Shown here: positions 9,318 through 20,434 of the stretch, one piece after another
How positions within the stretch are numbered: position 1 is the stretch's first letter
How the letters are laid out: each line of letters opens with the position of its first letter
NCBI GenBank assembly: GCA_002692065.1
Contig: NZJX01000020.1
Location: 26,428-89,535 of the forward strand
Length of the DNA stretch: 63,108 nucleotides
Source: Flavobacteriales bacterium
Lineage (GTDB): Bacteria; Bacteroidota; Bacteroidia; Flavobacteriales; UBA7430
Direction of reading: 5' to 3'
The notes under the pieces: model-generated
The model's input: the letters and a program-made list of their open reading frames with translations, nothing else
What the model was told of the DNA's origin: nothing
Database searches by the model: none
Program-made: the position numbers and the translations under genes

Positions 9318-10732
9318 AAAATTATAACAGACAACTTTTAAAATATCTATTACTAGATATAATTTCAGCATCAATATCTTGGTTTTTATTTTTTCTTTAC
9401 AGAAAAAAATTTGTTGAGTTTGATAAGTTAGGATATATAAATTCTTTTAATCTTGATATCAGACTATTTGAAGGGATTATTTTTATTTCTCTTTTTTGGA
9501 TTTTTTTATATTACATCTCTGGAGAATATAATAATTTATTTAGAAGATCGAGATTGAAAGATTTTACTAATACAATATTTCAGTCATTAATTGGGGTGAT
9601 TTTTATCTTTTTTATAGCAATTCTTGATGACATTATACCTAACTACAAAGAATACTACACTTTAGTATTAGTTCTATTTATCATTCATTTTTCTTTTACT
9701 TTTTTTTTAAGATATATCTTAACCTTGAATACTATAAACAATATTCGTAATGGTAAAATTTTTTTCAAAACTATTTTGATAGGTAATTCTGATTCTGCTA
9801 TTGAAATTTATAATAAGATTAAATTGAAAAAATCTCTAGGTAATATTATTGTTGGATTTATTGGTTTATCAGATTCAAACTATCATAATTTAAAAAAAAA
9901 AATACCCTATTTAGGTTCTCTCAAAGAAATTTCTAAAATAATAAAACACAAAAATATTGAAGAGGTTATTATTGCTATTGAAAGGAATCAACAAGATAAC
10001 TATTTAGAAGAAATTTTAAACTGTTTGGAAGGGACTGATGTAATTATCAAAATAAAACCAAATAATTATGACTTATTGATGGGGAGGGTGAAAATGACTT
10101 CATTTTTTGATGAGCCGTTAATTCAAATTAGATATGTTTTAATGTCTCAATTTAATTTTACTGTAAAAAGAATTTTAGATTTAATTATTTCAAGTACTTT
10201 ATTAATTTTATTTTTACCATTATTATTATTTTTATCTATCTTAATAAAACTTGATTCAAAAGGAAGTATTTTTTATTTACAAGAAAGACTCGGTAAAAAT
10301 GAGATTAAATTTAAAATAATAAAATTAAGAACAATGTTCATCGATTCTGAATTAAATGGACCGAGATTAACTGTTGATAAAGATAAAAGAATTACAAAAA
10401 TCGGAAAATATTTAAGAAAATATAGAATTGATGAATTACCTCAATTTATAAATGTAATAAAAGGAGATATGTCAATTGTAGGTCCAAGGCCTGAAAGAGA
10501 ATTTTTTGCAAAAAAAATCATTGAAAAAGCACCGTATTATAAACATGTTTATAGAGTCAAGCCAGGAATTACATCATGGGGAATGGTTAAATTTGGATAT
10601 GCATCTAATATTTCTGAAATGATAAAAAGATTGAAATATGACATAATATACATAGAAAATATGACACTAATCAGCGATTTAAAAGTAATTATTTACACAA
10701 TATTAATAGTCTTTCAAGGAAGAGGAAAATAA
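9299..10732 (+). CDS. Polyprenyl-phosphate glycosyl-1-phosphate transferase (WbaP/CpsE-like sugar transferase)
   Basis: It starts exopolysaccharide or O-antigen repeat synthesis by moving a sugar-1-phosphate from an NDP-sugar to undecaprenyl phosphate at the inner membrane. The protein is 477 aa: four N-terminal helices (about 18-36, 58-75, 92-110, 120-140), a nucleotide-binding-like domain (about 155-250), a membrane re-entrant helix (293-317), then the bacterial sugar transferase domain with LQERLGKN, KLRTM, KYRIDELPQFINVIKGDMSIVGPRP (about 374-398). The ATG lies inside the preceding lipoprotein gene. No other glycosyltransferases are adjacent, so the sugar is unknown. Confidence 0.9.
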   Translation: MASTKLKNYNRQLLKYLLLDIISASISWFLFFLYRKKFVEFDKLGYINSFNLDIRLFEGIIFISLFWIFLYYISGEYNNLFRRSRLKDFTNTIFQSLIGVIFIFFIAILDDIIPNYKEYYTLVLVLFIIHFSFTFFLRYILTLNTINNIRNGKIFFKTILIGNSDSAIEIYNKIKLKKSLGNIIVGFIGLSDSNYHNLKKKIPYLGSLKEISKIIKHKNIEEVIIAIERNQQDNYLEEILNCLEGTDVIIKIKPNNYDLLMGRVKMTSFFDEPLIQIRYVLMSQFNFTVKRILDLIISSTLLILFLPLLLFLSILIKLDSKGSIFYLQERLGKNEIKFKIIKLRTMFIDSELNGPRLTVDKDKRITKIGKYLRKYRIDELPQFINVIKGDMSIVGPRPEREFFAKKIIEKAPYYKHVYRVKPGITSWGMVKFGYASNISEMIKRLKYDIIYIENMTLISDLKVIIYTILIVFQGRGK

Positions 10733-10740
10733 ATTAAATT

Positions 10741-11628
10741 ATGAGAAAAATTTCAGTAATAGGATCAGGAACTATGGGAATTGGAATAGCCCAGACCTTT
10801 TTAATGAATAACTTTAAAGTAAATCTAATTGACATATCTAAGAAATCATTAGAACAATCCTTTAAAAGAATGGAATTATCCTTAGAAAAAATGTTAGTTA
10901 AAAAAAATATCACAAAAAAAATATATGATAATTCATTAAGAAATATTTCATTAAGTACTGATTTAGAATCTTCTTTAAATGGAATTGAGCTTGTTGTTGA
11001 GGCAATACCAGAAAATTTTAATTTAAAGTGTAAATTATTCAAAGAAATAGATTCAATATGTGATTCAGATGTTATTTTTGCTTCTAATACATCCTCAATT
11101 TCAATAACAAAGTTAGCTGCATTTACTTCAAGACCAGATAAATTTATTGGAATGCATTTCATGAATCCTGTTCCTTTAATGAAATTAGTTGAAATTATTA
11201 AAGGTTTTCATACCTCTAAAAAAGTTGTCGATTTTATTTTTTCACTTTCAAAGGGAATACATAAATTTCCAGTTTTAGTCAATGATTATCCTGGTTTTAT
11301 ATCAAATAGGATTTTATTACCTATGATAAATGAGGCAATTTATGCATTATATGAGAAAGTTGCAGGGGTGGAAGAAATTGATAAAGTAATGATACTTGGA
11401 ATGTCTCATCCAATGGGTCCCCTTCATCTAGCAGATTTTATAGGATTAGATACTTGTTTATCAATCTTAGAAGTCTTATATCAGGGCTTTAATAATCAAA
11501 AATATGCACCATGTCCTTTGTTAGTTAATATGGTTAATGCTGGTAATCTTGGAGTGAAAACAGGGGAAGGATTTTATTTGTATGGCAAAAATTATAATGA
11601 TAAATTTGTATCAAATCAATTCAAATAA
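10741..11628 (+). CDS. 3-hydroxybutyryl/3-hydroxyacyl-CoA dehydrogenase
   Basis: It oxidises (S)-3-hydroxyacyl-CoA to 3-ketoacyl-CoA with NAD, in fatty acid or butyrate-type metabolism. The 295-aa single-function form shows the Rossmann motif GSGTMGIGIAQTF (residues 8-20), VVEAIPE, SNTSSISIT, the catalytic MHFMNPVP (His at about residue 139), PGFISNRIL and the C-terminal helical domain with HPMGPLHLADFIGLD. It sits 8 bases after the sugar transferase and 8 bases before the SCO1-like gene, so is probably part of one transcript, although the functions seem unrelated. Confidence 0.9.
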   Translation: MRKISVIGSGTMGIGIAQTFLMNNFKVNLIDISKKSLEQSFKRMELSLEKMLVKKNITKKIYDNSLRNISLSTDLESSLNGIELVVEAIPENFNLKCKLFKEIDSICDSDVIFASNTSSISITKLAAFTSRPDKFIGMHFMNPVPLMKLVEIIKGFHTSKKVVDFIFSLSKGIHKFPVLVNDYPGFISNRILLPMINEAIYALYEKVAGVEEIDKVMILGMSHPMGPLHLADFIGLDTCLSILEVLYQGFNNQKYAPCPLLVNMVNAGNLGVKTGEGFYLYGKNYNDKFVSNQFK

Positions 11629-11636
11629 TTATTTAA

Positions 11637-12308
11637 GTGAAGTTTTTTAAAGAAATATATAAAATATTAATTGTTTTAATTTTGCTCTTTATTGGAGTAT
11701 TTTTTGTTTATCCAAATATAAAAAAAGATCCATCGTTGAAAATCTTCACACCAGCAGATATAAATCCAAAATTGCTAGATTCAATAATTATAGGTAATAC
11801 TTTACAACACTTTATTCCTGATTTTGATTTATATAATCAAGATGGAGACAAGGTCACACAAAAAAACTTGTCTGACAAAATTTATGTTTCAAGTTTTTTT
11901 TTCACTACATGCAATAATATTTGTCCCATCATGACAACAAATATGAAAATCCTTCATGATCATTTTTTATTTGATGATGAAATATCTTTCATTTCTCATA
12001 CTGTAACTCCAAAAATTGATTCAATATCAGTTTTAAAGGCTTATTCTGATTTATTTAAAATCAAAACATCAAAATGGATGTTACTTACTGGAGAAAAAAA
12101 GCAAATTTATGATCTTGCTAGAAATTCGTATTTTGCAACAACTACAAAGGGTGATGGATCAGATCAAGATTTTATTCATACTGAGAATTTTGTTTTAATT
12201 GACAAAAAAAAAAGAATAAGGGGGTTTTATGACGGTACTTCAAAAGAAGATACTAAAAGATTGATAAATGAAATAAATATTTTAAAATCTGAATACTTAG
12301 AGGACTAA
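11637..12308 (+). CDS. SCO1/SenC family copper-binding protein
   Basis: SCO proteins are membrane-anchored thioredoxin-fold copper chaperones for cytochrome c oxidase CuA assembly. The protein is 223 aa, with one N-terminal helix (about residues 8-25) and a periplasmic domain. It carries the CxxxC motif as Cys92-Cys96 in TTCNNICP, and the conserved copper-ligand His181 in FIHTENFVLID. The start is GTG at 11637. It is the end of a plus-strand group and shares four bases (CTAA) with the convergent aroE stop. A cytochrome oxidase operon is not in the window. Confidence 0.88.
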   Translation: MKFFKEIYKILIVLILLFIGVFFVYPNIKKDPSLKIFTPADINPKLLDSIIIGNTLQHFIPDFDLYNQDGDKVTQKNLSDKIYVSSFFFTTCNNICPIMTTNMKILHDHFLFDDEISFISHTVTPKIDSISVLKAYSDLFKIKTSKWMLLTGEKKQIYDLARNSYFATTTKGDGSDQDFIHTENFVLIDKKKRIRGFYDGTSKEDTKRLINEINILKSEYLED

Positions 12309-13027
12309 ATTATATTCCATATTTTCCATGATTCTAAAGCTTGATTTTTTAACATATCATATCCATTTAAAGTTAAACAATTTTTATTTATACCCTCTCT
12401 TAAAAATGAGGTCACTCTTGGATAGTAGTTAACATCAATTAAAATATGATTATTTGATAAATCATCGAAAGGTATTTTTGGTTTTTCATTAAATTTGCCA
12501 ATTGTACCAAGTGGAGTTGTATTTATTATAATTAAATTATTTTTTATTGTTGATTTATCAATCTCTTCATAAGTTATATTGTGTTTGTTTTTAGTTCTTG
12601 AAACAGTTTGATAATTTATTTTTAGAGAATTTAATACATAAGAAATTGATCTTGATACGCCTCCTGATCCCAATATTAAAACTGATATATTTTTTTTAAA
12701 ATACTTACTGAAAGCACTATAAAATCCAAGGTAGTCTGTATTAAAACCAATAGTTTTATTTTTTTTAAAATTTATAGTATTCACACTACCAATTATTTGT
12801 GCCTTAGGATCAATTTTATCTAAATAATCTATTATTTTTATTTTATATGGATTAGTAACATTTAGTCCACTAAAATTATTAGTTCTTATTAACTTTAAAA
12901 ATTCTTTAATATTATTTATTTCATAATTTTCATAAGATAATTTTTTTGATTGAAATTGTCTATGGAATATTTCTTTCGATGAAGAATAAATTAATTTTTC
13001 TCCAATTAAACCATACTTAAACATCAT
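12305..13027 (-). CDS. aroE: Shikimate dehydrogenase
   Basis: It reduces 3-dehydroshikimate to shikimate with NADPH. At 240 aa it is slightly short but complete: the substrate domain starts with FKYGLIGEKLIYSSS, has GLNVTNPYK (with the catalytic Lys), IGSVNTI, NTDYLGF, then the nucleotide motif LGSGGVSRSI, TTPLG, DVNYYP and a final GYDML. It is the last gene of a five-gene minus-strand operon (TPR, ComA-like, rhodanese, DUF368, aroE) and overlaps the DUF368 gene by 11 bases. A second Met at codon 2 is an equally good start. Confidence 0.93.
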   Translation of the reverse strand: MMFKYGLIGEKLIYSSSKEIFHRQFQSKKLSYENYEINNIKEFLKLIRTNNFSGLNVTNPYKIKIIDYLDKIDPKAQIIGSVNTINFKKNKTIGFNTDYLGFYSAFSKYFKKNISVLILGSGGVSRSISYVLNSLKINYQTVSRTKNKHNITYEEIDKSTIKNNLIIINTTPLGTIGKFNEKPKIPFDDLSNNHILIDVNYYPRVTSFLREGINKNCLTLNGYDMLKNQALESWKIWNII

Positions 13028-14027
13028 TTTTTTTTAAGTTTATTTTTTCACTTAAAAACACACAAAAGAAGCCAGTTAACATAAGAATTATTGATAAAAT
13101 TAAATTTATATCAAAAATTTCTGGAAGAAATCTCTCATAACCTATAACTATTGAATTTCCATTTCTATCAAATAAATTATTATCATGTACAGCTCTTTTC
13201 CAAGGCCAAATTATTGAAAGTGATCCAAATACAAAACCTGATAGAATAGCTAATATTATATCTTTATATTTTTTAAATATTTTTGACAATAAGTTAGAAA
13301 AAACAATTAGACCAAAAACTGATCCGAAAAAAAATATTGTAAAATTTAATACATCTTTATATTTTGAGAATCGCGAAATATCATTTAAATTGAGGGAAAT
13401 AATTAATTCAATAATTTCAAAAATAGCATTTATAGAATCAATCATAAGTAATTTATAATTGCCTAATAAAATCAGAAGATAAGATCCAGAGAGACCTGGT
13501 AAAATCATTCCACAAATTCCAATAATTCCACAAAAAAAGATATAAAAGTGGTTATCATTAGGATACATTATTGGATTAGAAAATCCAATGTATACTGAAA
13601 TTAACGAACCAAATAAAAATAGAAAAAATGTCTTGTAGTTTATTTCTTTTATTTCTTTTATGATTGAAAAAACAGAGGCTAATATTAATCCAAAAAAAAA
13701 TGACCAAATTAAATTAGGTTTATTATCAAATAAATAGTTAAGAAATTTTGCAAAACTAAGAACACCTATAACTGAACCCAAAAAAATTGGTAAAAGAAAG
13801 TTTAAATTTATATAGTTAATAAATTCTTTAAATTTGAGATTAAATAATAATTTGAATGAATTAAAATTTATGGATTTTAATGAGTTAATTAATTTTTCAT
13901 AAATCCCAGTTATAAGTGCAATTGTCCCTCCAGAGACTCCTGGAATTATGTTTGCAATGCCCATAAAAGATCCTTTCACAAATAAGGAAATAAAGTTAAG
14001 TAGTTTAATTTTATTTATTTTTTTCAT
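13017..14027 (-). CDS. DUF368 polytopic membrane protein (PopT-type undecaprenyl-phosphate translocase)
   Basis: The 336-aa protein has about nine hydrophobic helices and two inverted signature motifs, GSFMGIANIIPGVSGGT (about residues 19-35) and GMILPGLSGSYLL (about 172-184). Those are the hallmarks of DUF368. Members of DUF368 have been linked to flipping undecaprenyl phosphate back across the inner membrane for peptidoglycan and polysaccharide synthesis; that function is taken from the family. It overlaps the rhodanese gene upstream by 17 bases and aroE downstream by 11, so translation is likely coupled. Confidence 0.87.
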   Translation of the reverse strand: MKKINKIKLLNFISLFVKGSFMGIANIIPGVSGGTIALITGIYEKLINSLKSINFNSFKLLFNLKFKEFINYINLNFLLPIFLGSVIGVLSFAKFLNYLFDNKPNLIWSFFFGLILASVFSIIKEIKEINYKTFFLFLFGSLISVYIGFSNPIMYPNDNHFYIFFCGIIGICGMILPGLSGSYLLILLGNYKLLMIDSINAIFEIIELIISLNLNDISRFSKYKDVLNFTIFFFGSVFGLIVFSNLLSKIFKKYKDIILAILSGFVFGSLSIIWPWKRAVHDNNLFDRNGNSIVIGYERFLPEIFDINLILSIILMLTGFFCVFLSEKINLKKNDV

Positions 14028-14313
14028 TTATATATGCCTTATATCCTCCCACTAAGCAGTATAAATTCTTAAAGTTATATTCAATTTCTAAAATATTTAT
14101 AATAGCGCAAGCTCTTCTTCCTGTTTGACAATATATTATAACATTTTTATCATTTTCAATTTTATCAATTGACTTTATAACTTCATCTAAGGGAATATTT
14201 ATATTTGAAATCGAGCCATCATCAAATTCGTATTTTTCTCGTACATCAATAATTTGAATATTTTTTTTCTGTGTTATTTGTTTTATTAATTCAGTTGGGG
14301 TAATATTTTTCAT
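14011..14313 (-). CDS. Single-domain rhodanese-like protein
   Basis: The 100-aa cytoplasmic protein is one rhodanese (sulfurtransferase) domain: N-terminal IIDVREKYEFDDG (about residues 21-33), INIPLDEV, and the active-site loop YCQTGRRA with Cys62. Such proteins carry sulfane sulfur as a persulfide on the Cys. It is in the middle of the operon, four bases after the ComA-like gene, which handles sulfite. A role in supplying or detoxifying sulfur species is conceivable but unproven. Confidence 0.88.
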   Translation of the reverse strand: MKNITPTELIKQITQKKNIQIIDVREKYEFDDGSISNINIPLDEVIKSIDKIENDKNVIIYCQTGRRACAIINILEIEYNFKNLYCLVGGYKAYINEKNK

Positions 14314-14317
14314 TTAT

Positions 14318-15073
14318 TTATAGAAAATCAAAAAATGTATCTGCTCTTAACCCTAATCTTAGACATTCTAGAGAAATAACTTCATCTGGTGAAATATTTC
14401 CCAAGTTTACATTTGGTCCTAAACTTTTAATAAACCAAACTTGTTGAATTTTTTTTGGTGCTTCCCAGAGAATACTATCTTTTGGAACATTATTAATTAT
14501 ATTTTGAATTAAATTTGATTTGACTTTGTGATCATTTTTGAAAAGACCAATATTTCCACTCTCTCTTGACTCAGTTATTACTTTCCATGATCCAGCATTT
14601 AATTCCCTATTTAAAAGCTCAATCCATTTTTGAGAAGTTAGTTCAACCTCTTCATCTTTTGAACCAACCTCGGATAAAACAGTACAAGATTTTGAAAGTT
14701 TACTGATAAAGTTGCATTTTACATTATGATCTAAATCTATGCATCCGTCTGATATTTCGACAGTTTTTATATTAAATTTTTTTATTAATTCAGTATATTC
14801 GTTGAATGAATTCCTGGCAATAAAACTTTCAAAAAGAGTTCCACCAAAAAAAACTTTAATATTTTGTTTTTGGTATAGATCAATTTTTTCGACTAAGTTT
14901 GGAGTAACAATTGAAGTACCAAAACCTAATTTTATCAAATCTATTTGATCAGAAGATGAAGAAATTAAGTTTTTGGCTTGATTGAGACTTAATCCTTTAT
15001 CCATAACCATTGTTAAACCATTTTCTCTTGGTTTTTTTTCTCTCGCAGGAAGATTATTTAAATTAAAATTCAT
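14318..15073 (-). CDS. Phosphosulfolactate synthase-like protein (ComA family)
   Basis: ComA adds sulfite to phosphoenolpyruvate to give phosphosulfolactate, known from archaeal coenzyme M synthesis; related proteins occur in Bacteroidota and Bacillus. The 251-aa TIM-barrel protein shows MVMDKGLSL (about residues 22-30), LIKLGFGTS (46-54), FFGGTLFE (75-82), VEISDG (105-110), and SEVGSKD (134-140) with Lys139, likely equivalent to the catalytic lysine of the archaeal enzyme. No comB, comC or other coenzyme M genes are near, so the product might feed sulfolactate, cysteate or sulfonolipid synthesis; this is inference. It overlaps the TPR gene by 4 bases. Confidence 0.8.
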   Translation of the reverse strand: MNFNLNNLPAREKKPRENGLTMVMDKGLSLNQAKNLISSSSDQIDLIKLGFGTSIVTPNLVEKIDLYQKQNIKVFFGGTLFESFIARNSFNEYTELIKKFNIKTVEISDGCIDLDHNVKCNFISKLSKSCTVLSEVGSKDEEVELTSQKWIELLNRELNAGSWKVITESRESGNIGLFKNDHKVKSNLIQNIINNVPKDSILWEAPKKIQQVWFIKSLGPNVNLGNISPDEVISLECLRLGLRADTFFDFL

Positions 15074-16458
15074 TGAGTATTGTCAAAGTTTGAAAAATCA
15101 AGATCTTTTCTTAATAGAGGTATTTTTGAGAAAATTTTTTCTGTCAAATTTGGATCAAGAGAAATAGCTCTTATTAGATATTTTTTTGCTATATCGATAT
15201 TCCCATCAATATGCATATATATTCCTAAATTAAATAATAAGTCAGAATTTTTATAATGAAAATTCAAACCAGTTTTTAAAATTTTAATTGCTTTATGAGT
15301 TTCACTTATTTTAAACATTAATTTTGCATATTCAATCCAAATATTAGGTTCGTTTACTCCTAATTTGATAAGTTTTTCAAACCCCAAAATAGCTTCTGAA
15401 TATAAATTCGCTCTCACTAAAATCTTAGTTTGAATTAGAATATAATTGGTGTCATCCGGATTTAATGATATAGCTTTTTTTACATAATAAATTGATTCAT
15501 CAAGGAAGTTTAGTTTATCGTTACAAATAGCAATTTCCATCCAAGCTTCACTAAGTTGCGGATCTTCACTACAAGATTTTTTAAAAAATTTTATTGCTTC
15601 TTTATAAAGAGTTAGGTTTTTGTAACAAATCCCAATTTTAAGAAAAGTATATCCACTAGTATTTTCGTATTTAAAAGTTTCAAGATATGTTTTTATTGCT
15701 TGTTCATAGTTTTCTATTAAAGAATAATTTTTAGCTTTTTCATGGTAAGCAGCAGTAAACGATTCATTTATTATTATTGAATAGCTAAACGATTCAATTG
15801 CTAATTTATAATTTTTAATTTTGTTTTGAAGTAGTCCAAGATGATACCAACTTATATCAGAATATGGATTTATTTCAATATGATTCTCAAAAAACATAAT
15901 TCCTTCATCGTACTTTTTAAGTTTTTCAAAACAAAATGATATGTTAAATAAGGACATTTCGTCAAGAGGTTCATATTTAAGAAATTCAGATAAATATTTT
16001 ATTGTTTTAACATATTTTCCCATTGATTGATATTCAAAAGCTATAAATGGGAGTATTTCGCTACTATTATCAGATATATCTTTTGCTTTATAAAAAAATT
16101 TTAAAGCTGAAGTATGTTTTTTATCTTTTGAAAGTAAAGAACCTTTAGCTACAAATAAATCAGGGTTAATTGGCTCTAAAGATTCAGCAATATTTAATTC
16201 TTTCTCTGCTTCATCAACTCGTTCTAGTATAGTTAATATTTGAGCTTTTTTAATCGGAAAATTAGATGAAAATGGAAATTGATTGAAAGCGAAATCTGAA
16301 CATATCATTGCTTCAGAATATTTACCTTTTTCTATATAAAAGTCAACTATGTCCTCAAATTCAAAGCTATCGAAAAATATTTCATTTTTATTTTCAAGCA
16401 TTTTTTCATAACGAATAACTAGATTACTTAAATTATTACCCTTTCTATTTGAATTCAT
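15070..16458 (-). CDS. Tetratricopeptide repeat protein
   Basis: The 462-aa protein has no signal peptide or membrane helix, so it is predicted cytoplasmic. It is almost entirely TPR helical pairs from about residue 45 to 445. Typical repeat signatures visible include PDLFVAKGSLL, DISWYHLGLL, FTAAYHEKAKNYS, SEAWMEIAICNDKL and SDLLFNLGIYMHIDG. TPR proteins are scaffolds for protein contacts; the partner is unknown. It is the first gene of the five-gene operon whose next member, the ComA-like gene, overlaps it by 4 bases. From memory, a TPR-ComA-DUF368-aroE neighbourhood recurs in Flavobacteriia. Confidence 0.88.
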   Translation of the reverse strand: MNSNRKGNNLSNLVIRYEKMLENKNEIFFDSFEFEDIVDFYIEKGKYSEAMICSDFAFNQFPFSSNFPIKKAQILTILERVDEAEKELNIAESLEPINPDLFVAKGSLLSKDKKHTSALKFFYKAKDISDNSSEILPFIAFEYQSMGKYVKTIKYLSEFLKYEPLDEMSLFNISFCFEKLKKYDEGIMFFENHIEINPYSDISWYHLGLLQNKIKNYKLAIESFSYSIIINESFTAAYHEKAKNYSLIENYEQAIKTYLETFKYENTSGYTFLKIGICYKNLTLYKEAIKFFKKSCSEDPQLSEAWMEIAICNDKLNFLDESIYYVKKAISLNPDDTNYILIQTKILVRANLYSEAILGFEKLIKLGVNEPNIWIEYAKLMFKISETHKAIKILKTGLNFHYKNSDLLFNLGIYMHIDGNIDIAKKYLIRAISLDPNLTEKIFSKIPLLRKDLDFSNFDNTQ

Positions 16459-16532
16459 AGAATTATCATGTAATTAAACAATTTTGTAAATCTAATCTAT
16501 TTATTTGTATAAAATAAATATGTGATTCTAAT

Positions 16533-16541
16533 TTATCCACA
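16533..16541 (+). other. Perfect DnaA-box consensus (TTATCCACA) in an AT-rich divergent gap
   Basis: The nine bases match the classical DnaA box exactly. They lie in the 148-base gap between the TPR gene and glmM, next to long T-runs. Only one box was seen in the gap, so this is not enough to call a replication origin. A DnaA-titration or DnaA-regulated promoter site, or chance, remain possible. Confidence 0.3.
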
Positions 16542-16583
16542 ATTAAGTTCACATTTTTTATTTTTTTTCTTAAAAATTCAATT

Positions 16584-16591
16584 TATATATT
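16584..16591 (+). promoter_or_regulatory. Putative -7 promoter box (TATATTTG) for glmM
   Basis: A full TAnnTTTG match ends 15 bases before the glmM ATG. No clear -33 element. The spacing matches the boxes at 4369 and 44535. Confidence 0.42.
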
Positions 16592-16606
16592 TGTTAAAAA
16601 ATATTT

Positions 16607-17992
16607 ATGACTTTAATTAAATCTATTTCTGGGATACGTGGAACCATAGGTGGAGAAGTTGGATCGAATCTAACTCCAGTAGATATTGTAAAATATACTA
16701 GTTCATTTGGTATTTGGATTAAGTCAAAATCAAAAAATGATTTTAAAGTAGTAATTGGAAGAGATTCAAGGTTGTCAGGAAAATATATTACAAGTTTAGT
16801 TGAGAGTACCTTAATAGCTCTTAATATAGATGTAATCAATATTGAAATGACTACAACCCCAACGCTAGAGTTAGCCGTAATTAAAGAGTCAGCTAATGGT
16901 GGAATCATGATTACTGCAAGTCATAATCCAAAAAATTGGAATGCTTTAAAATTAATTGATAATAAAGGAGAGTTTTTAGATAATATTGAAGGAGAAAAAA
17001 TTATCAATATCGCCAAAAATCAAAAACTTTTAAATTTCTCAAGTGAAGAAAAAATTGGTAAAATTTTTGTCAAAGATTTTTTGCAATTCCATATTAATTT
17101 AATTTTAAACTTACCAATTATTAATATAAAAAATATTAAAAATTCAGAGTTTAAGGTTGTGGTCGATGGTATTAATTCTTCTGGAGGAATTTATCTACCA
17201 TATTTATTGAATAAAATGGGGGTAAATATTGTAAAAATTAATTGTAATCCAAATGGAGATTTTTCTCATAATCCAGAACCTCTAAATAAAAATTTATCAC
17301 AAATATCTAAATATGTAGTAGAACATAAGGCTGATATTGGATTAGTAGTTGATCCTGATGTAGATAGATTGTCTTTAATTTGTGAAGATGGATCTTTTTT
17401 TGGTGAAGAATATACTTTAGTTGCTGCAGCAGATTATGTTTTGAGTAAGAAAAAAGGAAATACAGTTTCTAATTTGTCTTCAACAATGGCCTTGAAAGAT
17501 TTATCATTAAAATATGGAGTAAATTATTATCCTTCTGCAGTAGGAGAGGTGAATGTTAGAAAAAAGATGAAAGAAGTTAATGCTGTTATAGGGGGAGAGG
17601 GAAATGGTGGCGTTATTCTACCTGAACTTCATTACGGAAGAGACGCATTAGTTGCATCTGCTATAATTTTAGCCCATTTATCAGAAAGTAAACTCAAGAT
17701 TTCTGATTTAAGGAAGAAATATAAAAATTATTTCATGTCAAAGAAAAAAGTTGAGATCAAACCCAATCAAGATTTTGATTTGATTTTAACTCATTTTAAA
17801 AATAAATATTTTAATTACAATTTGAATTTACAAGATGGTTTAAAAATTACTTTTGACAATGAATGGGTTCACCTTAGAAAATCTAATACCGAGCCTATTA
17901 TCAGAGTTTATTCCGAGAGTGTATCTCAAAAAAATGCTAATGAATTAACTACTAAAATTATTAATGAAATTTTAAAAATTAATTTATCTTAA
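16607..17992 (+). CDS. glmM: Phosphoglucosamine mutase / phosphomannomutase family
   Basis: It most likely converts glucosamine-6-phosphate to glucosamine-1-phosphate for peptidoglycan and lipopolysaccharide precursors. The 461-aa alpha-D-phosphohexomutase has the start LIKSISGIRGTIGG, the phosphoserine loop TASHNP with Ser105, the magnesium loop DPDVDRL, the sugar-specificity loop GEGNGGV (about residues 325-331), and the phosphate-binding RKSNTEPIIRVY near the end. In Bacteroidota this N-terminus is that of GlmM, but phosphomannomutase activity cannot be excluded. It is 6 bases ahead of the cysteine desulfurase gene. Confidence 0.88.
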   Translation: MTLIKSISGIRGTIGGEVGSNLTPVDIVKYTSSFGIWIKSKSKNDFKVVIGRDSRLSGKYITSLVESTLIALNIDVINIEMTTTPTLELAVIKESANGGIMITASHNPKNWNALKLIDNKGEFLDNIEGEKIINIAKNQKLLNFSSEEKIGKIFVKDFLQFHINLILNLPIINIKNIKNSEFKVVVDGINSSGGIYLPYLLNKMGVNIVKINCNPNGDFSHNPEPLNKNLSQISKYVVEHKADIGLVVDPDVDRLSLICEDGSFFGEEYTLVAAADYVLSKKKGNTVSNLSSTMALKDLSLKYGVNYYPSAVGEVNVRKKMKEVNAVIGGEGNGGVILPELHYGRDALVASAIILAHLSESKLKISDLRKKYKNYFMSKKKVEIKPNQDFDLILTHFKNKYFNYNLNLQDGLKITFDNEWVHLRKSNTEPIIRVYSESVSQKNANELTTKIINEILKINLS

Positions 17993-17998
17993 AAAATT

Positions 17999-19132
17999 AT
18001 GAAGGTATATTTTGATAATGCTGCTACAACTAAAATAGAGGATGAAGTTATTAAAACTATTCTACCAATCATGAAAAATGGGTTTGGGAATCCTTCCTCA
18101 CCCCATTCATATGGTAGAAGTATCAAGTCACATATTGAAATTTCAAGAAAAATAATTTCTAAAGAATTAAATTGTGAGTCTAATGAGATATATTTCACTT
18201 CTGGTGGAACAGAATCAGATAACATGGCAATAAATTCAGCTGTGAGAGATTTAAAAGTAAAAACCATCATTTCTTCAAAAATTGAACACCTTGCCGTACT
18301 AGAAACAATTAATAGCTTAGGGTTGTTAAATGATGTCAAAATTAAGTTCGTTAAAGTTGATGAGAAAGGAAATATTGATTTAAATGATTTAGAAAAAATT
18401 TTATCCAAAAATTTTAATGCCCTTGTTTCTTTGATGCATGCAAATAACGAAATTGGAAATATTTTAAGAATTTATGAAGTTGCTGATTTATGTGAAAAAT
18501 ATAATGCTTATTTTCATACTGATGCTGTTCAAACAATTGGACATTTAAGATTTGATTTAAAATATAATAATAATATTCACTTTCTAGCATCATCTTCTCA
18601 TAAGTTTCATGGTCCTAAAGGAGTAGGTTTTCTTTATATAAATAATAAAATAAAAATCAAATCTCTCATTAAAGGAGGAGGACAAGAAAGAAATCTTAGA
18701 GGAGGAACTGAAAACACGTATTCAATTGTAGGTATGGCTAAAGCATTTGAATTATCTTACAAAAATTTAGAAAATCACGAGAATCACTTAATAAAAATCA
18801 AAAGATATATGATTTCAGAACTCAAAAAAAATTTTTCAAATGTTATTTTTAATGGTCTTAGTGAATGTTTTGATTTGAGTTTAAATTCCATTCTTAGTGT
18901 AAGTTTTCCCAAAAATTCAATTTCAGATTTCATTATTATTAATCTTGATATACTTGGAGTTGCATGTTCTGGTGGCTCAGCTTGTTCATCTGGATCGATT
19001 AAAAAATCTCATGTGCTCAAAGAATTAAATGAAAAAAAAGATAGATCAACAATTAGGTTCTCATTTTCAAGATTTAATAAAATAGAGGAAGTTGATTATG
19101 TTATAAATTGCTTAAAAAAATTTTATAATTAG
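17999..19132 (+). CDS. Cysteine desulfurase (IscS/NifS-like)
   Basis: PLP enzyme that takes sulfur from cysteine as an enzyme persulfide for Fe-S clusters, tRNA thiolation or cofactors. At 377 aa, it starts VYFDNAATTK and has TSGGTESDN (about residues 67-75), HTDAVQ, the PLP lysine Lys202 in SSSHKFHGPKG, the RGGTEN motif, and the catalytic loop SACSSGS with Cys329. This is the IscS-type loop rather than the SufS type. No iscU or iscA neighbour is present. It overlaps the convergent DUF2147 gene by four bases (TTAG). Confidence 0.92.
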   Translation: MKVYFDNAATTKIEDEVIKTILPIMKNGFGNPSSPHSYGRSIKSHIEISRKIISKELNCESNEIYFTSGGTESDNMAINSAVRDLKVKTIISSKIEHLAVLETINSLGLLNDVKIKFVKVDEKGNIDLNDLEKILSKNFNALVSLMHANNEIGNILRIYEVADLCEKYNAYFHTDAVQTIGHLRFDLKYNNNIHFLASSSHKFHGPKGVGFLYINNKIKIKSLIKGGGQERNLRGGTENTYSIVGMAKAFELSYKNLENHENHLIKIKRYMISELKKNFSNVIFNGLSECFDLSLNSILSVSFPKNSISDFIIINLDILGVACSGGSACSSGSIKKSHVLKELNEKKDRSTIRFSFSRFNKIEEVDYVINCLKKFYN

Positions 19133-19575
19133 TTAATTGAATTAGACTTAGTCCAGATTGTAGTTTTTCCAAATAGTGAGAATCCAATATAGCCTCTTAA
19201 TTTTAATTTTTGTTCACTTAAATTTGCAAATAGTTTATAAGTTTTCCCATCTCTAGCATTATATATTGACCCGTTTATCCATTCTTTTTCTTTATCATTC
19301 CACATCAAATTACTCAAAATTTTTAATCCAAGTAATTTTTTATTTCTTAAGTTTTTATTTGGATTATTTTTATCAGTTTTAAACTCACCATTTATATCCT
19401 TGGGTTCTTTTAACCAAATCATTTTTCCAAAAAATAAATTTTCTGATTTATATATTTCAATTTTAGCATTTTTTTCCTCATTTAGCCAAATACCAATAAT
19501 ATCATTTGAATTTTGACTAAAAAGAAAATTATTTACCAAAATTGTAAGCACAAAAATATTGACTAATTTGATCAT
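19129..19575 (-). CDS. DUF2147 domain protein, exported
   Basis: The 148-aa protein has a signal peptide (cleaved after about residue 20, FLFSQ) and then a DUF2147 domain: IIGIWLNEEKNAKIEIYK, KMIWLKEPKD, NKKLLGLKIL, WINGSIYNARDGKTYK and LKLRGYIG. The family has a lipocalin-like beta-barrel flavour, is periplasmic or surface-located, and its function is unknown. It lies one base after nadC, so is probably co-transcribed from the promoter at 20479. Confidence 0.85.
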   Translation of the reverse strand: MIKLVNIFVLTILVNNFLFSQNSNDIIGIWLNEEKNAKIEIYKSENLFFGKMIWLKEPKDINGEFKTDKNNPNKNLRNKKLLGLKILSNLMWNDKEKEWINGSIYNARDGKTYKLFANLSEQKLKLRGYIGFSLFGKTTIWTKSNSIN

Positions 19576-19576
19576 T

Positions 19577-20434
19577 TTAAATTTTATAAGATGAAATTAA
19601 ACTTAGGTCAAAGTTATTTATTGAATGAGTTAGAGCTCCAACAGAGATATAATCAACTCCACAATCAGCATAATTTGTAATATTTTTAATGTTTATGTTA
19701 CCTGAGCTTTCAACTTCAAATTTTTTATTAATCAATATCAATGCCTTTTTGGTTTTCTCAATTGTAAAATTATCCAAAATAATTCTATTTATTCCTCCTA
19801 AATTAATTATCTGTTTTACTTCTGATAAATTCCTTGCTTCTATAACTAATTTAATGTCAAGTTTTTTTTGATCAATATAATTTTTACATTTGTTTATAGC
19901 ATTCTTAACACCTCCGCAGAAATCGATATGGTTATCTTTGATAAGAATCATATCATATAAACCAAATCTATGGTTTACTCCACCACCAATATTAACAGCC
20001 CATTTTTCAATAATTCTATTTCCAGGAGTTGTTTTTCTTGTATCAAGTAATTTTGTTTTTTTATTATTGATTATTTTGACAAATGAAGAAGTTTTTGTTG
20101 CTATGGCACTCATTCTTTGCATGAAGTTTAAAACAATTCTTTCAGATCTTAAAATGGATAATAAGTTACCACTAACTTCAAGTATTGTATCTCCTTTTTT
20201 TACATAATCTCCATCTTTTTTAAGTTTAAGTAGTTTTAATTTTGAGTCATTATATTCAAATATCCACTCAGCTAGTTGAAGTCCAGCAATCATTCCATTT
20301 TCTTTGGATATAAGCTTAGCATGACCTATTTTATCTTTATCTATACATGCAATTGAAGAATGGTCTTTGCCTTTCAAATCCTCATTGAAAGCGATTTTAA
20401 GTATGTCTAAAACATTATCTCTAGAAATTTTCAT
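19577..20434 (-). CDS. nadC: Nicotinate-nucleotide diphosphorylase (quinolinate phosphoribosyltransferase)
   Basis: It converts quinolinate and PRPP to nicotinate mononucleotide, CO2 and pyrophosphate, the entry to NAD from the de novo pathway. At 285 aa, it shows RIVLNFMQRMSAIAT (about residues 123-137), LLDTRKTTPG (quinolinate-binding Arg and Lys), GGGVNHRFGLYDMILIKDNH (about 169-188), and the C-terminal ESSGNINIKNI and DYISVGALTHS. Full length and intact. nadA and nadB are not in the window. Confidence 0.94.
   Translation of the reverse strand: MKISRDNVLDILKIAFNEDLKGKDHSSIACIDKDKIGHAKLISKENGMIAGLQLAEWIFEYNDSKLKLLKLKKDGDYVKKGDTILEVSGNLLSILRSERIVLNFMQRMSAIATKTSSFVKIINNKKTKLLDTRKTTPGNRIIEKWAVNIGGGVNHRFGLYDMILIKDNHIDFCGGVKNAINKCKNYIDQKKLDIKLVIEARNLSEVKQIINLGGINRIILDNFTIEKTKKALILINKKFEVESSGNINIKNITNYADCGVDYISVGALTHSINNFDLSLISSYKI

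Follow-up and report, generated by a model that had tools for sequence, protein, structure and literature searches.

Organization of the comA locus

The DNA analyzed here, referred to as the window, is a stretch of 63,108 nucleotides (contig C16:26428-89535) from the 1.65 Mb metagenome-assembled genome (MAG, G000) of a small marine Flavobacteriales bacterium, which is 92.1% complete with 6.8% contamination. It carries a gene of the ComA family, encoding a putative phosphosulfolactate (PSL) synthase, and this study concerns that gene and the sulfolactate route to which it may belong. The gene lies in a run of five on the minus strand, from position 16458 down to 12305 of the window:

15070..16458, minus strand: TPR-repeat protein, first in the run; TPR families in Pfam; homologue in 69 of 80 named ComA loci
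14318..15073, minus strand: ComA-family phosphosulfolactate synthase (predicted), 251 aa; PF02679 at 299 bits, fold, conserved residues, dN/dS 0.13
14011..14313, minus strand: single-domain rhodanese, 100 aa, active-site loop CQTGRR; PF00581 at 8e-17
13017..14027, minus strand: DUF368 / undecaprenyl-phosphate translocase-like membrane protein, 336 aa; PF04018 at 9e-77
12305..13027, minus strand: aroE, shikimate dehydrogenase, 240 aa, last in the run; Shikimate_dh_N at 3e-17, TIGR00507 at 155 bits (cut-off 200)

All junctions in the run are between 4 and 17 nt. The stop of the TPR gene and the start of comA overlap by 4 nt, a gap of 4 nt separates comA from the rhodanese gene, and overlaps of 17 nt and 11 nt are found between the rhodanese and DUF368 genes and between the DUF368 gene and aroE, respectively. 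The coordinates and the Pfam matches confirmed the gene content, order and strand that an initial annotation of the sequence had given for this run. The nearest named locus (L032) belongs to the uncultured 'Cryomorphaceae' bacterium AG-903-K14, with a ComA identity of 94%. Against this same-genus-like locus, the ratios of nonsynonymous to synonymous substitution rates (dN/dS) were 0.05 for the TPR protein, 0.13 for ComA, 0.05 for the rhodanese, 0.17 for DUF368 and 0.31 for AroE. Purifying selection acts on all five genes.

Sequence and predicted structure of ComA

The match of the window ComA to PF02679 covered profile positions 2-243 of 243 (E 3e-89; cut-off 25.2 bits), and its closest solved proteins in phmmer searches were those of Bacillus subtilis (1U83, 1.5e-57) and Methanocaldococcus jannaschii (1QWG, 1.3e-47). 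An alignment of 178 sequences was used to compare residues, consisting of 175 sequences from the collected loci, the window protein, 1U83 and 1QWG. In this alignment, 69 residues of the window ComA were identical in both solved proteins. No deviation was found at any column more than 95% conserved and the charged and polar positions of the family were all kept, as judged by family-wide conservation rather than by a list of phosphoenolpyruvate (PEP) and sulfite contacts. An AF2 model calculated from 60 sequences had a predicted local distance difference test score (pLDDT) of 93.2 and a predicted template modelling score (pTM) of 0.91, and superseded an 11-sequence model with a pLDDT of 77.5. 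The model superimposed on 1QWG with a VIA Z of 34.6 (1.5 Å over 244 residues) and on 1U83 with a VIA Z of 32.3 (1.3 Å over 225 residues), the aligned residues being about 42% and 41% identical, respectively. The best structural match outside the PSL synthase family had a Z of 14.3.

These data suggest that the window ComA is a genuine, intact member of the PSL synthase family, predicted to catalyze the family reaction. Missing PEP- and sulfite-binding residues had been named in the initial annotation as evidence that would speak against its reading of ComA, and no such loss was seen at the conserved columns or in the fold, on the family-wide measure used in place of ligand contacts. The protein resembles the M. 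jannaschii and B. subtilis enzymes in fold, length, the 69 identical residues and all strongly conserved positions. It differs from them in its setting, since its gene belongs to a TPR-ComA-(rhodanese)-DUF368-aroE block and is not accompanied by com genes. Cultured genera carrying ComA include Chitinophaga, Fulvivirga and Roseivirga. Two ComA genes over the cut-off were observed in six genomes of a phylum-wide sample (G003, G008, G033, G081, G151 and G195).

A ComB protein in the same genome and its co-occurrence with ComA

The sole match to PF04029 (ComB) in the genome was found at G000:C11:67955-68626, with an E of 3.1e-68 and 229 bits (cut-off 26.4). Compared with the solved ComB-type protein 1VR0 (phmmer 1.7e-36), the protein retains the GER, NSP and TTTNGT stretches, and its scores stay under the NCBIfam equivalog cut-offs. 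In family f1 (12 genomes), both ComA and ComB were found in 10 genomes, ComA only in G264 (67% complete) and ComB only in G278 (59% complete). Since the f1 relatives carry comB too, contamination is an unlikely source of the gene.

Co-occurrence of the two families was then counted in wider samples, in which the sub-cutoff matches to ComA in G019 and to ComB in G250 and G297 were not counted. Among 198 genomes from across the phylum, ComA was present in 56 and ComB in 116; 56 genomes had both, none had ComA only, 60 had ComB only and 82 had neither (Fisher p ~1e-16). For the 'same class' genomes, those with ComA and those with ComB were the identical 22, plus the window's own. The order-level sample of 148 genomes had ComA in 50, with both families in 41, ComA only in 9, ComB only in 3 and neither in 95 (p ~4e-24). 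The order-level families with ComA (f1, f44, f46, f49 and f51) were also those with ComB, save for one ComB-only genome of f41. The co-occurrence of ComA and ComB in Bacteroidota is therefore strong.

An alternative explanation is that ComA has drifted to a different reaction and that its link to ComB is a phylogenetic coincidence, as the plant heat-stress protein Hsa32 is supposed to have drifted to another reaction. The literature searched contained no assay in Bacteroidota, and ComA occurs without ComB in three genomes of one genus. However, the family-wide conserved charged residues are all present, the fold is near-identical, and ComB is present in all 56 phylum-sample genomes that carry ComA, which makes drift very unlikely.

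The surroundings of comB were also recorded. In the genome studied here, comB directly follows gcvT (L159:8835-10656). Among 24 loci with a recognized comB (a count that leaves out locus L176), gcvT shares the locus in 21, mostly as a direct neighbor and in several families. This neighborhood gives nothing clear on sulfonates. In five f44 genomes (G201, G213, G224, G254 and G287), a single contig carries comA and comB at a distance of about 11 kb, with conserved, unrelated-looking genes between them.

Coenzyme M and sulfonolipid genes

No match to PF02615 (ComC, Ldh_2) was found in the genome, with a positive control in M. jannaschii. The searches for ComC and for the sulfate-assimilation protein CysH (see below) covered 78 of the 105 ComA-positive genomes. 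PF02615 was present in 22 of them, namely all 20 genomes of f4, f5, f9, f10 and f11, the single f39 genome and one of nine in f44. It was absent from ComA-positive genomes of f1 (0/10), f46 (0/9), f49 (0/19), f51 (0/2), f23 (0/3), f35 (0/2), and f7, f8 and f13 (0/1 each). Two Ldh_2 proteins were scanned, and the top NCBIfam match was L-sulfolactate dehydrogenase at 270 bits (cut-off 500). The closest solved relative of one of them was a malate dehydrogenase. Because of the sub-cut-off score and this relative, the Ldh_2 class is ambiguous between ComC and malate dehydrogenase.

The archaeal coenzyme M pathway (ComA-ComB-ComC-ComDE) has the same first two steps as those proposed here, whereas ComC was not found in this genome. 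The coenzyme M route was rejected on the absence of ComC, the later steps not having been searched individually. The initial annotation had reported no coenzyme M genes. This held for the window, which has neither comB nor comC (PF04029 matches only on C11 and PF02615 nowhere), but not for the genome, which has comB.

The α-oxoamine synthase (AOS) family, in which a sulfonolipid-forming enzyme would be expected, was represented in the genome only by Kbl (TIGR01822, 626 bits; cut-off 493) and by a BioF-like protein (322 bits; cut-off 426) that adjoins bioD-like and bioA-like genes. The MAG, 92% complete, yielded no candidate for an acyltransferase of the SulA or serine palmitoyltransferase (SPT) type. 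Bacteroidetes are known for sulfonolipids, and their SulA uses cysteate, according to the available text of PMC9304779. ComA could accordingly catalyze an early step of sulfonolipid (capnine) synthesis, in which sulfolactate would be converted to sulfopyruvate and by transamination to cysteate, which SulA would condense with acyl-ACP (acyl carrier protein). Besides the sulfonolipids and SulA described for the phylum, the Ldh_2 proteins in 20 of 20 genomes of f4, f5, f9, f10 and f11, with L-sulfolactate dehydrogenase as top but sub-cut-off match, are in line with this route. Both synthesis routes lead to sulfonates in Bacteroidota, but capnine synthesis starts from cysteate, not from sulfolactate. 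Moreover, Ldh_2 was found in just 1 of 49 ComA-positive genomes of f1, f44, f46, f49 and f51. With no Ldh_2, no SulA or SPT, and only Kbl and the BioF-like protein in the AOS family, the sulfonolipid route was rejected for this genome, and as an explanation of ComA it is highly improbable. The link to sulfonolipids drawn in the initial annotation was not supported. The genome-wide search that it had proposed yielded a candidate for the phosphatase, ComB, but neither a sulfolactate dehydrogenase (PF02615) nor a SulA-type gene. Since no ComC, SulA or SPT was found, sulfolactate is the likely end product.

A putative two-step route to sulfolactate

We propose that ComA adds sulfite to PEP to give phosphosulfolactate, and that ComB, encoded elsewhere in the genome, would strip the phosphate to give (R)-3-sulfolactate. 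Sulfolactate would be the end product, as in Bacillus spores, and might serve as an anionic solute or a sulfur store, or be released. The route could double as a means of removing toxic sulfite, no sulfite reductase having turned up in the genome. We put the probability of this reading at roughly 60%; the activity, the product and its fate are inferred from sequence, modelling and analogy. The bacterium probably makes sulfolactate rather than coenzyme M or sulfonolipids. That a sulfite-fixing ComA opens a sulfonate route outside coenzyme M biosynthesis had already been suggested in the initial annotation, and the intact family-conserved residues supported it.

The precedent is B. subtilis yitCD (ComB and ComA), which in the available text of PMC517825 is inferred to serve phosphosulfolactate synthesis, with sulfolactate making up 5% of the spore dry weight. 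Both genes are present in each organism and sulfolactate is the expected end product. In contrast to yitCD, the two genes lie here on separate contigs, comB is beside gcvT, and no sporulation is known.

Several observations weigh against the proposed route. The ComA score of 261.7 bits does not reach the cut-off of 280 of the archaeal ComA equivalog TIGR03849. The comA (C16) and comB (C11) genes are unlinked and do not form one operon of the B. subtilis type. The Fisher p-values are too small, since the sampled genomes are related and not independent. ComA is found without an over-cut-off ComB in G250, G297 and G304 (f49, genus g135; 86-95% complete), suggesting that ComA may work without ComB or that another phosphatase may serve. 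Sixty of 198 genomes have ComB but no ComA, which means that ComB need not be dedicated to a sulfolactate route. In the f4, f5, f9, f10 and f11 relatives, which have Ldh_2, sulfolactate may not be the end product. Finally, absence of a gene is not proof in a MAG that is 92% complete with 6.8% contamination.

The ComA and ComB enzymes and the two-gene sulfolactate module of Bacillus are already known. What is new is the genome-scale link between ComA and ComB across Bacteroidota, including small-genome lineages in which no ComC and, in the genome studied here, no sulfonolipid genes were found. No publication tying ComA and ComB to sulfolactate in Bacteroidota was found in a literature search that was far from full. 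Marine microbes are regarded as exchanging carbon and sulfur in the form of C3 sulfonates such as sulfolactate. If the proposed route is correct, sulfolactate producers would include small-genome lineages of the Flavobacteriales order and many other Bacteroidota (ComA in 56/198 genomes of the phylum sample and 50/148 of the order sample), and the annotation of a 'coenzyme M' gene in bacteria without detectable ComC would have an explanation.

Supply of sulfite and the rhodanese

No NIR_SIR domain, and hence no sulfite reductase, was found in the genome, sulfite oxidases lying outside the search. The single protein of the 3'-phosphoadenosine 5'-phosphosulfate (PAPS) reductase family (PF01507) has 301 aa, a CysD-like length, and is encoded beside a CysN-like GTPase and an adenosine 5'-phosphosulfate (APS) kinase. 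No CysH was found in the genome, where the best match (3.3e-5) was the CysD-like protein itself. With neither a CysH-like match nor NIR_SIR, sulfate assimilation was rejected as the sulfite source in this genome. Bacillus differs in having dedicated sulfate-reduction genes, yitBA-yisZ, according to the available text of PMC517825; none were found here. Since no sulfate-reduction step was found, the sources left for sulfite would be organic sulfur, thiosulfate or persulfides. The APS kinase, CysD-like and CysN-like genes were observed together with an inositol-phosphatase-family gene at L256:7225-10819 (contig C7), within a sugar-nucleotide and surface-polysaccharide cluster. This setting, in which no CysH was found, suggests sulfation, not sulfur assimilation.

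ComA and ComB might instead serve mainly as a sulfite sink for detoxification, with sulfolactate as exported waste. Neither sulfite reductase nor CysH was found in the genome, and 49 of the 78 ComA-positive genomes lack a convincing CysH (E below 1e-20), so that ComA persists in genomes that do not form sulfite by assimilation. However, CysH is present in the other 29 of the 78, and no exporter or regulator was identified. We consider this explanation unlikely.

The rhodanese encoded 4 nt behind ComA offers another possible source of sulfite. Its catalytic Cys sits in the six-residue loop CQTGRR, as in members of the family, and the CxxGxR loop is retained in 38 of 40 rhodanese homologues (the set includes some duplicates). 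Counted in 100 of the 105 ComA-positive sample genomes (G058, G100, G119, G139 and G175 were left out), a rhodanese adjoins ComA in 31 of 100 loci: 10/11 in f1 (the eleventh locus is truncated), 9/9 in f44, 9/9 in f46, 2/2 in f51, 1/1 in f8 and none elsewhere. This restriction to certain lineages is most simply explained by a later insertion.

If the rhodanese replaced CysH, it would free sulfite from thiosulfate for ComA. The position next to ComA, the conserved Cys loop and the lack of CysH in this genome are consistent with such coupling. However, CysH was found in 9 of 31 genomes with the rhodanese and in 20 of 47 without it, and all 19 genomes of f49 have neither rhodanese nor CysH. Only two supported independent pairs were available on the tree, so no trend between rhodanese and CysH can be demonstrated. 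In addition, single-domain rhodaneses serve many other roles. Rhodanese presence does not track CysH loss, a role as CysH substitute was not supported, and the coupled variant of the route is quite unlikely. Where a lineage has the rhodanese, the enzyme might perhaps produce sulfite from thiosulfate. Of the sulfur handling assigned to it in the initial annotation, the catalytic loop stood up, but a general tie to ComA did not, given its presence at only 31 of 100 ComA loci and the lack of tracking with CysH loss.

Conserved neighborhood of ComA

In addition to the TPR protein, blastp searches of the 80 named ComA loci found homologues of AroE in 60, of DUF368 in 46 and of the rhodanese in 9. 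These are minimum counts, because some of the loci are short and distant homologues escape a single-query blastp; ComA itself was recovered by open reading frame calling in 79 of the 80. TPR-ComA-DUF368-aroE is an old conserved neighborhood. The TPR, DUF368 and aroE genes have probably long adjoined comA without contributing steps to the pathway.

The DUF368 protein matched PF04018 over the full domain length with 258 bits (cut-off 26), as do the undecaprenyl-phosphate translocases (PopT). It scored 257 and 77 bits against the NCBIfam polyprenyl-phosphate transporter and PopT models, under the cut-off of 400, and only its position connects it with ComA. Recycling of the lipid carrier of surface glycans is a known function of DUF368 proteins. 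Wza-like and Wzc-like capsule export proteins share the locus with the ComA block in 28 of the 80 named loci, and a CpsB-like phosphatase was found just upstream at the one locus examined closely (L041). The same queries found no Wza-like or Wzc-like protein in the window. Phosphosulfolactate or sulfolactate derived from ComA might decorate a surface polysaccharide in much the way that PEP-derived pyruvate does, but this is highly improbable. Such attachment would make ComA the source of a new sulfonate decoration on Bacteroidota envelopes.

Other features

No tandem repeats were found within positions 10000-20000 of the window. A promoter scan gave 43 sites compared with 39.6 expected from shuffled sequences, which is no excess, and a terminator scan gave two weak terminator-like sites, both inside genes. 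Elsewhere in the genome, a nitric oxide synthase oxygenase domain (PF02898, 365 bits) was observed on the minus strand of contig C13 (L153:1-768), clipped by the end of the locus.

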